A stretch of DNA of 30,721 bases from positions 1-30,721 of the IMG/VR virus record IMGVR_UViG_3300025102_000009; one strand, 5' to 3'. The stretch is from a virus. The notes under the pieces are model-generated. The model searched no databases. It was not told the origin of the DNA and was given only the letters and a program-made list of their open reading frames with translations. This document shows positions 11,151 through 23,547 of this stretch, in pieces; the first letter of the stretch is position 1; every line of letters starts with the position of its first letter. The translations under genes were made by a program, and so were the position numbers.

Positions 11151-12200
11151 ATGAGTTATAATAGGATAAAAACACCTAGGGTTTATACAGACCTGATAAG
11201 CCAAAGTTTAACTAGTAGCTGGAGGGATTTGAGCGATATAACAATAAAACAAGACGATGGCTCAACTTCTGTTACTTTTAATAGCGGTACGGAAGCGGGA
11301 TTATTTGATTTAAAACCAGCAAACTCTGTAAATATAGCAAAGGAAAATCAATCATTTTACATACAATTTGATACTGGACTTGATACAAATGCATTAGCAG
11401 AATCTAATTACCTAGCAATATTAAATCATAATTTCCATAATGCAGACGCAGTTTTAGTGGTTGAGATTAGTGATAATGCAGATATGTCAAGTGCTACAAA
11501 AGTTTCAACAACTTCTAACCATACAAAATTAATAAATGCAGATGCAAATGATACTGCAGGTGAAATTGACCCCCAACAAAATGGATGGACCCTTATTACT
11601 TGGAACACACAAACTTCGAACAATAGATATTTAAGACTAACTATATCTGACGATGGAGGAACTGGACAGAATTTCGCTACTAATGTTATAATAGGTTCTA
11701 TTATGTATGGTGAATATTTTGAATTTCCTAATGCTCCAGAAGTAGGAGTAACTACTAAAATAGATTATGACGGTGTAAAAACTAAAAATTCTTTAGGTGG
11801 AAATACTTATGCAACTGCTACAAATTTAGGACAACCTGACTGGGATAAAACAATAGCTTGGAACAATAATTCCAGTACCAATACAAGTGGTAATATCTAT
11901 ACAAAAAGAACGGGAAGGATGAACCATTCCTTAAAATTTAATTATTTAAGTGATACAGATGTCTGGTCTAATAATTCTGCATCTAGCAACCCTACAGAGT
12001 GGTTTAATACATTAACAGCTCATAATTCTTTTTACAATAAAGTAGTGGGTCAGTTACATCCCTTTTTATTTAGTATAGATAAAGATTCTACTTCAGAAGG
12101 AGATTATGGGATGTTTAGACTTAAAGACAAAAGTTTTAAAGCTACACAGGTTTCTGATAGGATTTGGAGTATAGCTTTTAATATTACTGAAAGTTGGTAA
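11151..12200 (+). CDS. Tail-tip protein, putative receptor-facing beta-sandwich
   Basis: The protein is 349 aa. Residues about 60-185 look like a galactose-binding-type beta-sandwich (SFYIQFDTGLDTNALAESNY, then NNRYLRLTISDD and IIGSIMYGEYFEFP). The C-terminal part includes RTGRMNHSLKFNYLSDTDVW and DYGMFRLKDKSFKATQVSD, resembling distal tail components. It starts immediately after the preceding stop and is the last gene of the late operon; a 239-bp non-coding gap follows. A role in tail tip assembly or carbohydrate contact is inferred. Confidence 0.6.
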   Translation: MSYNRIKTPRVYTDLISQSLTSSWRDLSDITIKQDDGSTSVTFNSGTEAGLFDLKPANSVNIAKENQSFYIQFDTGLDTNALAESNYLAILNHNFHNADAVLVVEISDNADMSSATKVSTTSNHTKLINADANDTAGEIDPQQNGWTLITWNTQTSNNRYLRLTISDDGGTGQNFATNVIIGSIMYGEYFEFPNAPEVGVTTKIDYDGVKTKNSLGGNTYATATNLGQPDWDKTIAWNNNSSTNTSGNIYTKRTGRMNHSLKFNYLSDTDVWSNNSASSNPTEWFNTLTAHNSFYNKVVGQLHPFLFSIDKDSTSEGDYGMFRLKDKSFKATQVSDRIWSIAFNITESW

Positions 12201-12248
12201 ATAATCTATGATTATATATAGAAAAACATATTAAGTTTATCCCCTGCA

Positions 12249-12316
12249 GGCAGAGGTGTATCAACGATTTGCTCCTATGTTCGTTGTAGTATTCACAATA
12301 TAAAAACGCCTCTGCC
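12249..12316 (+). ncRNA. Predicted three-way-junction RNA element at end of late operon
   Basis: Three stems can form together. P1 is 12249-12259 with 12306-12316 (GGCAGAGGTG against CGCCTCTGCC plus one T-A pair). P2 is 12262-12267 (CAACGA) with 12281-12286 (TCGTTG). P3 is 12289-12293 with 12297-12301. The P2 loop holds GCTCCTAT, which recurs just after P1 at 12317-12324. CTCCT is complementary to Shine-Dalgarno sequences. No long U-tract follows P1, so a plain terminator is not the best reading. It is not a tRNA: there is no T-arm or anticodon arm geometry. It may be a small RNA, a 3' end stabiliser or an attenuator. Confidence 0.5.
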
Positions 12317-12343
12317 GCTCCTATTTTATACCGTTAATTAACC

Positions 12344-12377
12344 CTTTATTTTTTTAAATAAAGTGTTTTATTTCTGG
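12344..12377 (+). terminator. AT-rich hairpin with U-rich tail (weak terminator candidate)
   Basis: CTTTATTT (12344-12351) pairs perfectly with AAATAAAG (12356-12363) around a TTTT loop and is followed by TGTTTTATTTC. It lies between the structured element and the promoter-like leader. The stem is almost all A-T, so termination efficiency is uncertain. The flanking T-rich sequence on both strands would allow either direction. Confidence 0.4.
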
Positions 12378-12378
12378 A

Positions 12379-12439
12379 TTATCTTTATTAATATACATAT
12401 GTGAATACTAATTACTTAATAAAAAAAAGGAGCTCCACA
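12379..12439 (+). promoter_or_regulatory. Promoter/5' leader A of the early operon
   Basis: This segment aligns without gaps to 19824-19884, sharing about 55 of 66 positions when the first codons are included. Shared blocks are TTATCTTTATTAA (12379-12391), TGTGAATAYTAATTACTTAA (from 12400) and AGGAG before the ATG. The matching copies in front of two separate gene starts mark it as regulatory. TACTAAT is a possible -10. The -35 is unclear. The ribosome site sits in a short palindrome, GGAGCTCC (12429-12436). Confidence 0.6.
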
Positions 12440-12631
12440 ATGGATAATTTTAACGAAATGGATCTAGGCCTATTAGATTCTTTGCTAATGGAAAAGCTTG
12501 ACAACCTTAATAACAGATTGAATAATGAAGAGTTATCTGACTGGCAAACAAATAAACTTGAAGAAGAAAAAGCTAAATTATGGACTTTAAAAACTAAGTT
12601 GTTTTCAGGTTTACTTAAAGGAGGTAAGTAA
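12440..12631 (+). CDS. First gene of early operon, small helical protein
   Basis: The protein is 63 aa. ATG 12440 is chosen over the in-frame ATG 12401 because AAGGAG lies 7 nt upstream and the earlier codons fall inside the duplicated leader. The sequence is charged and helical (LLDSLLMEKLDNLNNRLNN, then WQTNKLEEEKAKLWTLKTK), probably a coiled coil. It ends GGK at a GGAGGTAAGTAATG junction shared by four gene ends in this operon. The second leader, at 19824, also precedes a short helical protein. Function is unknown. Confidence 0.65.
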   Translation: MDNFNEMDLGLLDSLLMEKLDNLNNRLNNEELSDWQTNKLEEEKAKLWTLKTKLFSGLLKGGK

Positions 12632-18483: not shown

Positions 18484-19803
18484 ATGTGTGGGATCTTGAT
18501 ATATAATAAAGACTCATTACCAGGGATAAAGCTAAATCATAGGGGAATAATAAGTAGTTCTACTAGGAAAGAGGATTGGGTATTAGAGCATCGTTTGTTA
18601 CCTATACAAACAAATAACGAAAAGGGATTACAACCCATTCAATTAAAAGGGGATAGGTATCTATTATTCAATGGGGAGATCTTTAATTTCTATAAATTTG
18701 GGGATTATACTAATGACACTTCCTATTTAAAAGACTTTTTTGACGACTTAGAATGGAGGAAGAATATTAATGAAATAAACAGATGGTGTGGTTTTTGGTC
18801 CATAGTTATATATGAGGAGAAGGGTTTTACGGCCTTTACGGACCCGTTAGGGAAGAAACAGCTATATTATAATGAATATATGATAAGCAGTGAAATTAAA
18901 CCGTTATTAAGGAATAATCCTTTATTAGGGACCCCTAAGTTATTACAACCTACGGGTAATACCCCTTTTCTTGGTGTACGTAGGATAAAACCTAATAGGA
19001 TATATAGATTACAACCACATCTTAAGACAAGGGTGTTTGATGTTTATATAACTGGTATGAAATATTATAATATATATAAAAACGAAAGTAAAGAATCTTT
19101 ATACCAAAGGATGCAAAATTCTACACAAGATAGGTTGATTAATAAGATGGATGGTATTACTATGTTTGTAAGTGGGGGTCTAGATTCTACTATAATATTA
19201 CACCATCTTTTAGAGTCCCCCATCCCTAATAATAAGATAGAATTATTAACAATAGAAAACGGCGAGGAAGAATATATAGAGATAATTGAGAAATATTATA
19301 ATGTAAGTGTCCGAAGAATACCTATAGAAGAGAATTTGTACAGAGAAGCAATTCTAAGTTATGAGCATTATCTGGATTATGGTAGTTTACTGCCCCAATA
19401 TTGTTTATTCAAGAACTCTAGTAATACAGTAGTATTAACAGGGGATGGTGCAGATGAATTATTTAGTGGATACAATAGAGCACAATTATGGGACACTCAA
19501 AAATACGATGTAAGAACGGAATTACCGTATTATCACCATATTCGATTAGATAGGTGCAGTATGGTACATACAAAAGAAGCTAGGAACCCTTTTCTATCCA
19601 AGGACGTAATATCTTATGCTATGAATTGTGCATATAAAAAAAGGAAAGGGAAAAAGGTATTAAAAGATAATTACATGGGTTATATACCTAAACAAATAAT
19701 AGAAAGAAAAAAACTACCGCTAAGGGATGGTAATAAGGATCTTTGTAGGCAAAAAGCATATAGAGAATTTGTTAATATATTCAAAGGGTATAATAACCCT
19801 TAA
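18484..19803 (+). CDS. Asparagine synthetase B-like glutamine amidotransferase
   Basis: The protein is 439 aa, shorter than E. coli AsnB (about 554), but both domains are complete. Class II glutaminase: Cys2 nucleophile (MCGILIY), Arg37 (EHRLLPI), Asn63-Gly64-Glu65 (FNGEIFN). Synthetase: ATP-pyrophosphatase loop SGGLDS (230-235), GDGADELFSGY (320-330), and a C-terminal GKKVLK ... IIERKKLPLRDG segment like the Lys/Arg motif of AsnB. Such enzymes move ammonia from Gln to an adenylated carboxylate, usually Asp. AGGAGG lies 8 nt before ATG. As the last gene of the nucleotide operon it may supply asparagine, or amidate a modified nucleotide; the second is speculation. Confidence 0.85.
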   Translation: MCGILIYNKDSLPGIKLNHRGIISSSTRKEDWVLEHRLLPIQTNNEKGLQPIQLKGDRYLLFNGEIFNFYKFGDYTNDTSYLKDFFDDLEWRKNINEINRWCGFWSIVIYEEKGFTAFTDPLGKKQLYYNEYMISSEIKPLLRNNPLLGTPKLLQPTGNTPFLGVRRIKPNRIYRLQPHLKTRVFDVYITGMKYYNIYKNESKESLYQRMQNSTQDRLINKMDGITMFVSGGLDSTIILHHLLESPIPNNKIELLTIENGEEEYIEIIEKYYNVSVRRIPIEENLYREAILSYEHYLDYGSLLPQYCLFKNSSNTVVLTGDGADELFSGYNRAQLWDTQKYDVRTELPYYHHIRLDRCSMVHTKEARNPFLSKDVISYAMNCAYKKRKGKKVLKDNYMGYIPKQIIERKKLPLRDGNKDLCRQKAYREFVNIFKGYNNP

Positions 19804-19823: not shown

Positions 19824-19884
19824 TTATCTTTATTAAGTTTGACATGTGAATATTAATTACTTAACAAAAAATAGGAGTTCTAAA
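19824..19884 (+). promoter_or_regulatory. Promoter/5' leader B (paralogue of leader A)
   Basis: The segment shares TTATCTTTATTAA (19824-19836), TGTGAATATTAATTACTTAA (19845-19864) and AGGAG with leader A, all at the same spacing. Here TTGACA (19839-19844) is also present and could serve as a -35, with TAACAA 17 nt further as a weak -10; TATTAAT is the alternative -10. Leader A lacks TTGACA, so the conserved blocks matter more. Confidence 0.6.
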
Positions 19885-20091
19885 ATGGAAAAAGAAATCA
19901 TAAATCTTTTACAAAAAGAGTATAACAGTACACTAGAAGAAGCAAAAGATGCTTATAATAAATTCTATTATGCTGCTAAAAATTATAGTGACCCATCACC
20001 ATCTTTAAAAAATCAAGTCGTATTAATACAACATTGGTATCAAACATATAATAAAACTTGGGGAAAAAAGTTAAGAGATATTAATAGGTAA
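19885..20091 (+). CDS. Small helical protein behind leader B
   Basis: The protein is 68 aa. ATG 19885 follows AGGAG (19873-19877) by 7 nt; an in-frame ATG at 19846 is inside the leader and is rejected. Charged helices (NLLQKEYNSTLEEAKDAYNK) are followed by an aromatic second half. It is a single-gene unit between leader B and a strong terminator, so it can be expressed separately from the long operon. No family is recognised. Confidence 0.65.
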   Translation: MEKEIINLLQKEYNSTLEEAKDAYNKFYYAAKNYSDPSPSLKNQVVLIQHWYQTYNKTWGKKLRDINR

Positions 20092-22119: not shown

Positions 22120-22184
22120 TAAATAGATTAGGAACTGCAAGGGGAAAATTGCTAAACAATACAAAAGGAATTAAAGATGTATAA
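22113..22184 (+). CDS. Possible 23-aa ORF between terminase and portal
   Basis: TTG 22113 is preceded by AGGAG (22102-22106) at 6 nt spacing, within the terminase end. The frame reads MVVNRLGTARGKLLNNTKGI and ends KDV, overlapping the portal start by 8 bp. The residue mix looks protein-like, and it fills the only gap between these two genes. It is very short and could be chance. Confidence 0.3.
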   Translation: MVVNRLGTARGKLLNNTKGIKDV

Positions 22185-23547
22185 TTTTGGAAAATCCGTA
22201 AATAGAGTAGTAATCCCTGAACTATCTGAACAAGCAGTACTTCAAAGCGTTAAGGATGCTGGTAGGAATTATGTTGAACAAGAACACTATAATCTAATGG
22301 AATCCTTGGACTTTTACTATAATCAAAACCTTGATTCCCATTTAGAACCTTGGTTTGCTAGTGAGTCCCTAAGTCAAGTACCTCCTTTCATTAGCTCTTG
22401 TGTCCCTAGGTTTGCAAAAGCTAGGATGATGATATATAAGCAAGATCCTAAAAGAATTATTGGTGGAGAGAAGAACGATCTGTATAACGAACTTGCTTAT
22501 AAATTAAATTCTAAAACAAGAGAATTTGCCGAGTTATCTTGGTTGTTAGGTTGTTGCTACCTCAAATCAAGATTTAACGATAGGTATCAAAGGTTAGAAT
22601 ACGAGGTACTACCTAAAGTGCAAGAATATTATTTTAATGGGGAATCAGAGCCTTATGGTTATTCTTACGAAATAGAGAGTTATGAGTACGATAATAAAAG
22701 ATTTGTATTTTGGTCTGAAGATAGAGATGGTGTTCAAGGTATGCATTTTGAATATGATCAAAAAGGTAGAAGATACGCGGTAGAAGGTAACCCTGATATG
22801 ATTAATCCTTTTGGGATCATACCTATCAGTAAAGTTGAAATGACTAAAGGCAGCTATGATGTAACTAGAACTGCGCTTCATATTGCAATTGCTATGACCG
22901 AAATTGCTTTATCCGTTAGGTTTAGATTGGGTCAAGCTGTGTTTACAGGTATAGAAGAAGGGCAAAGCAAATTAACTGCGGGTATAGATAATGCATATGT
23001 GCTACCAGAAGGGGCATCCTTTAATTATGTAACTCCTGGTGGTAACTTAGTTGAGTTAATAGAAGCTACTAAATCTATGGCGAATCAAGTAGCAGAGAAT
23101 AACCAATTAAGGATTAGATGGGGTGATTCATCTGGTAACGCACCAAGTGGAGAAGCTCTAAAAATATTAGAGATAGAAAACCTAGAAGCAAGAGAAAGTG
23201 ATATATCTTACTTTAGAGAATGGGAAAATAACAGATATAATATTGACAAAAGGATCTTAGAAACTTATAATGTAATTAACTTACCAGAGGATTATTATGT
23301 AGATTTTGCTGAAGTCTCCTTCCCTGTTTCACCCAAAGAAGAGCGTGAGTTCTTAAGTTGGAAACTAGATAACAATGTAATGACTCAAAAGGATCTATTA
23401 TTGTATTTTAATCCGGACATGTCTGATGAAGAATTAGAAAGCAAAATGGCTGATATAATGCAAGAGAACCAAGTGGTTGCAGCAAGTAAGCAGCCACCGT
23501 CAACATTTCAAAGAATATTAAATGGCACAAATACAACCAGCAGTTGA
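22177..23547 (+). CDS. Portal protein
   Basis: The protein is 456 aa. It follows the large terminase and shows the portal pattern: an N-terminal helical part (FYYNQNLDSHLEPWFASESL), a wing region with many aromatic strands, the stem helices around residues 230-260 (ALHIAIAMTEIALSVRFRLG), and MANQVAENNQLRIRWGDSSG with GEALKILEIENLEARE of the crown. It forms the twelve-part ring for DNA entry. It overlaps the next gene by 26 bp. AAAGGA precedes ATG 22177. Confidence 0.85.
   Translation: MYNFGKSVNRVVIPELSEQAVLQSVKDAGRNYVEQEHYNLMESLDFYYNQNLDSHLEPWFASESLSQVPPFISSCVPRFAKARMMIYKQDPKRIIGGEKNDLYNELAYKLNSKTREFAELSWLLGCCYLKSRFNDRYQRLEYEVLPKVQEYYFNGESEPYGYSYEIESYEYDNKRFVFWSEDRDGVQGMHFEYDQKGRRYAVEGNPDMINPFGIIPISKVEMTKGSYDVTRTALHIAIAMTEIALSVRFRLGQAVFTGIEEGQSKLTAGIDNAYVLPEGASFNYVTPGGNLVELIEATKSMANQVAENNQLRIRWGDSSGNAPSGEALKILEIENLEARESDISYFREWENNRYNIDKRILETYNVINLPEDYYVDFAEVSFPVSPKEEREFLSWKLDNNVMTQKDLLLYFNPDMSDEELESKMADIMQENQVVAASKQPPSTFQRILNGTNTTSS

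Follow-up and report, generated by a model that had tools for sequence, protein, structure and literature searches.

The phage RNAs sar and OOP are transcribed antisense to their targets. Sar RNA of P22 and OOP RNA of lambda limit the translation or stability of phage mRNAs, and in the structured c4 antisense RNA of phages P1 and P7 (RF01695), short stretches within loops are complementary to the surroundings of a phage ribosome-binding site; c4 is thought to block translation (PMC12197685). In E. coli, the trans-acting small RNA OxyS makes two separate short contacts with fhlA, one of them at the ribosome-binding site (PMC2946933). The conserved phage element described here appears akin to c4 RNA or OxyS in its working, yet our analysis indicates that it is no c4 member. 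As in c4, exposed segments are complementary to a phage ribosome-binding region, and the target specificity varies between relatives; however, c4 controls one antirepressor mRNA, whereas this element would target at least two separately promoted operon leaders, one of them approximately 7 kb away. In OxyS-fhlA, the second contact lies in the coding sequence, whereas here it lies at the mRNA 5′ end, the sequence is unrelated, and the phage's own operons are targeted. Sar and OOP each act on one phage mRNA (ant and cII, respectively), whereas this element is trans-encoded and pairs briefly and imperfectly with several leaders. The c4 model RF01695 gave no match at E ≤ 5 over positions 12150–12460 of the window, that is, the whole stretch of 30,721 bases analyzed, and none at E ≤ 2 in six relatives (L231, L233, L244, L240, L245, and L003).

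The window has identical 34-bp ends, is a complete-looking phage genome record, and carries all its assigned genes on the + strand. The late set begins with the terminase gene (20917), continues through the capsid gene (25313) and across the ends to the tape measure gene (6595), and closes with a gene ending at 12200. The early genes begin with the ATG at 12440 and include thymidylate synthase, dCMP deaminase, and asparagine synthase. The element lies between these two sets, as the initial annotation had stated, and relatives carry it at the equivalent place. No Phage_integrase was detected within the window. The terminase, queried twice against the genome_contigs collection (GTDB species genomes), gave no relative, the closest terminase of a cultured phage was approximately 41% identical, and the protein at 22177–23547 had no match. 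The carriers are a group of uncultured viruses of bacteria; they are apparently marine, judging from a distant pelagiphage-like capsid and a general reading of the metagenome records rather than from a habitat table. The asparagine synthase-like protein of the early region (18484–19803), which has a glutamine amidotransferase domain, is unusual cargo for a 30-kb phage.

The core of the element spans 12244–12324 on the + strand, as do all the parts that follow. Helix P1 (12249–12258 with 12307–12316) comprises 10 bp plus one, and compensatory changes on both sides were found in nine of its 10 pairs; in P2 (12262–12267 with 12281–12286), they were found in five of six. The minimum free energy of the element in the window was −26.9 kcal/mol (z −4.3), with P1 and P2 present, and none of 200 shuffles was as low. 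In the covariance-model alignment of the members, 99.6% of the P1 cells and 88.6% of the P2 cells were paired, and for both helices together 95.7% of cells paired versus 77% in shuffled and 42–56% in slid controls, although an alignment fitted by such a model favors the structure. RNAalifold, run freely on the 29 members, also predicted P1. The initial annotation had proposed a three-way junction of P1, P2, and P3 and had named compensatory changes among relatives as the check. The first two helices were borne out by covariation. P3 appeared in the minimum free energy fold of the window's element alone; it was absent from the RNAalifold consensus of the 29 members, which returned P1 alone, and was rejected as lying outside the consensus fold. 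The bases in this region are constrained because they hold the conserved antisense segment, not a helix.

Two parts of this fold are exposed. The P2 loop GCTCCTAT (12271–12278) contains a CTCC that is invariant in nearly all members, with an unpaired probability of 0.83 in the window and a mean of 0.97 over 24 members. Behind P2 lies the antisense segment GTATTCACA (12289–12297), the exact complement of TGTGAATAC in the early-operon leader and complementary to leader 5′ ends. As had been noted initially, GCTCCTAT recurs after P1, at 12317–12324. This second copy, with its CTCCTAT, belongs to a pyrimidine-rich 3′ tail (12317–12329) that is C/U-rich in all members and is not a canonical terminator. 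The tract, CUCCUAU in the window, is retained as a pyrimidine tract by all members.

A covariance model built from nine members, as the initial annotation had recommended, detected new syntenic members left out of its building, with E values from 4e-12 to 5e-4. Altogether, 29 records matched (27 distinct rows in the resulting alignment, A4), all at the same syntenic late/early junction and on the same strand. In L003, in which the upstream gene is 78% identical, the element stands at the equivalent place. No family member was found among 99 unrelated loci carrying the short sequence pattern, and the element was absent from two pelagiphages with approximately 27–29% similar capsid proteins. Three weak matches containing TATTCACA (L246:3957–4035, L245:3911–3984, and L243:2451–2522) were left out of the count as lying outside the early/late junction, and they are probably chance or coding; a minus-strand match (L043:4989–5038) was, as expected, a leader read in reverse complement. 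The initial annotation had recognized no Rfam family, and none matched 12150–12460 even at E ≤ 5; membership was rejected for the window and the tested relatives alike. The RNA family is apparently undescribed, within the open papers that the literature search covered. A catalog of viral structured RNAs has reportedly been published by Fremin and colleagues, and the motif could already be listed there.

Two leaders in the window match the element. Leader A, of the early operon (12400–12439, +), comprises TGTGAATAC at 12400–12408 and AGGAG at 12428–12432 before the ATG at 12440. When the element was paired with 48 translation starts, leader A gave the best duplex. Leader B, at the head of the genes that precede the terminase/late operon (19845–19884, +), came second; it comprises TGTGAATAT at 19845–19853 and ATAGGAG at 19871–19877 before the ATG at 19885; its region is a 91-nt repeat of the leader A region, 76% identical. 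On the + strand of the whole window, TGTGAATA occurred only at 12400 and 19845, that is, in the two leaders, and TATTCACA occurred only at 12290, inside the element. In both leaders, UGUGAAUA is reverse-complementary to the nearly invariant RNA segment UAUUCACA, and the CUCC of the P2 loop is complementary to their GGAG Shine–Dalgarno sequence. The two contacts are ordered in an antiparallel-consistent manner, so that one RNA molecule could hold both sites. The matches to the ribosome sites in the initial annotation were exact: leader B has ATAGGAG (19871–19877), the complement of CTCCTAT, and leader A has AGGAGC (12428–12433), that of GCTCCT. Its proposal of a small RNA regulating both leaders gained strong comparative support, with the P2 loop as a second, weaker contact; the decisive pairing, between UAUUCACA and UGUGAAUA, had been overlooked.

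In the promoter region of leader A (12366–12399, +), aligned leaders shared a T-rich −35-like block near −33 and a TAnnTT-like −10 box ending approximately 5 nt before TGTGAATA. From this spacing, TGTGAATA most likely represents the first transcribed bases of the leader mRNAs. Nearly all members had a TTAAnTTTCTmCCC-like block approximately 10–14 nt ahead of P1, and it resembled the −10 region of the leaders; in the window it includes the putative −10 box TTAAGTTTA (12231–12239, +). This conserved block suggests that the RNA has its own promoter; no conserved −35 sequence was found upstream of the element across the members. The protein encoded directly behind leader A had no hit in a PHROGs search. 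This first gene (12440–12631, with equivalents in L010, L060, L075, and L226) was wholly different between phages while the leader was kept, as if small genes were swapped beneath one RNA-controlled leader.

Among the relatives, the antisense word and leader A changed together. In place of the RNA/leader pair TATTCACA/TGTGAATA, there was TTCATA/TATGAA in L253, L257, L259, L260, L261, and L018, ATTCGCA/TGCGAAT in L226, L229, L223, and L230, TAATCACA/TGTGATTA in L240, and GATTCAC/GTGAATC in L236; flanking bases were matched too, e.g., C/G in L246. The protein tree shows five or more changes of the word, and leader A changed along with every one of them. Scanned by word, CACA elements had 21 TGTGAATA leaders and no others, CATA elements nine TATGAATA and one TGTGAATA, and CGCA elements five TGCGAAT, two TGTGAATA, and one TATGAATA. 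The fit of each RNA to its own leader was 10.36 of 14, versus 9.48 (SD 0.18) for re-dealt partners, a value reached in none of 20,000 shuffles, although the leader cores were picked by eye from the core pattern and kinship among the sequences inflates such tests. An independent count of the duplex gave 90.8% paired cells versus 83.4% when shuffled and 35–46% when slid, with 31 compensatory cells versus 9.5 (none of 500) and five pairs changed on both sides. The leader B-type sites approximately 7 kb off mostly followed the changes of the RNA word, with a fit of 8.62 of 9 versus 8.09 (none of 20,000 shuffles). For the P2 loop and Shine–Dalgarno sequence, the fit was 6.57 for own and 6.10 for re-dealt partners (five of 20,000 shuffles as high), and the base after CUCC tended to match that before GGAG (CUCCA/UGGAG, CUCCU/AGGAG, and CUCCG/CGGAG in L240), a weaker signal; with CUCC and GGAG almost constant, this contact offers few changes that are independent of one another. 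Exceptions were a partial fit of the leader A core TGTGTTTT in L035, a CUCCG/AGGAG mismatch in L010, L091, and L243, non-pairing at the final position of the antisense word in six of 28 leaders, and poor following by the distal leader of L060. Judged by comparative sequence analysis, the fold, the pairing, and its co-evolution with distal leaders are established, and the RNA–leader pairing is strongly supported by covariation.

We therefore consider it very probable that the element is a phage-encoded, trans-acting antisense RNA of approximately 80 nt that pairs with the leaders of the phage's own operons and most likely represses their translation. P1 would close the molecule, with CUCC exposed in the P2 loop and UAUUCACA exposed in the unpaired stretch that follows P2. 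These segments would pair with UGUGAAUA, at the 5′ end, and with the GGAG of at least two phage mRNAs, those of leader A and leader B, and with extra leaders in some relatives. With both sites covered, each operon would most likely have its first gene repressed at the level of translation, and whole operons might be lowered through polarity or decay. Because both the Shine–Dalgarno sequence and the mRNA 5′ end are covered, and the leaders are scarcely structured around the former, repression is the natural reading, and a positive effect by opening the Shine–Dalgarno sequence is unlikely. We infer that the RNA is transcribed as a discrete molecule from a promoter of its own, and its repressive effect and the timing of its action are inferred likewise. 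The element shares with trans-acting base-pairing small RNAs a complementarity to mRNAs encoded elsewhere, with compensatory changes; the intrinsic terminator with a U-rich tail typical of Hfq-type small RNAs was not found in 12000–12600, and the tail is mixed C/U. The alternative role suggested initially, an attenuator ending late transcripts, was rejected, since 12000–12600 holds no canonical or terminator-like site and leaders approximately 7 kb off co-vary with the element.

The words could instead be DNA operators: three sites, made up of TGTGAATA and the reverse-complement copy carried by the element, would bind a single phage repressor or activator, and the element would be a terminator that contains one of them by chance. 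Such sites would likewise change together among phages, and the words do lie at transcription starts. However, the element always carries its word in antisense and at a fixed place in a covarying RNA fold, and the P2 loop co-varies with the Shine–Dalgarno sequence, which an operator does not need. The tolerated mixes are moreover of the G–U type (CATA with TGTGAATA in L023; CGCA with TGTGAATA in L047 and L050), whereas the A–C type, a CACA element with TATGAATA or TGCGAAT, was seen in none of 21, small as these numbers are. We regard operators as quite improbable.

The constant position of the element, between the late genes and leader A and close to the latter, would also suit an element acting in cis, present only on readthrough late transcripts and masking the leader A ribosome site that follows approximately 100 nt further along that molecule, and a c4-like cis arrangement appears to occur in the distant relatives L231 and L233. 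Separately promoted leaders approximately 7 kb off, however, share the sequence and mostly the compensatory changes, which makes a purely local action very unlikely indeed. It is just as hard to credit that the RNA is a positive trans regulator whose pairing with the extreme 5′ end, the main contact, shields leader mRNAs from 5′-end-dependent decay: the second contact covers a Shine–Dalgarno sequence that is already largely unstructured, so that pairing should block ribosomes.

If the element is a repressive antisense RNA, small phages without a recognized protein repressor may time their early and late operons by one such molecule. The evolutionary evidence for RNA–mRNA pairing is unusually clear, with compensatory changes across two separate molecules and at several places per genome, and the family supplies orthogonal RNA/leader pairs as a natural panel. 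An unlikely extension is that the antisense/leader classes (CACA, CATA, CGCA, GATT, and AATC) are orthogonal specificity groups, in which the RNA would silence co-infecting phages of the same class and not those of other classes; if true, this would amount to RNA-based superinfection exclusion or incompatibility among phages without a detected integrase.

Other hairpins were seen in relatives. The distant relatives L231 (2899–3011), L233 (320–460), and L235 (1480–1595) lack the main element and have another hairpin, in which TATCATCTCC is complementary to the upstream GGGGAGATGATA of the transcript and to the downstream ribosome-binding site GGAGATGATA(AAATG), which recalls c4. On reading these sequences, the hairpin antisense UAUCAUCUCC appears to match the 5′ copy lying upstream as well as GGAGATGATA downstream, which provides a lead. 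L244 carries tandem hairpin RNAs (1294–1356 and 1422–1496); in the second, GTTGTTGTTATCCATA is almost complementary to TATGGAAACAACAAC in the following leader, which suggests that this hairpin is a retargeted version.
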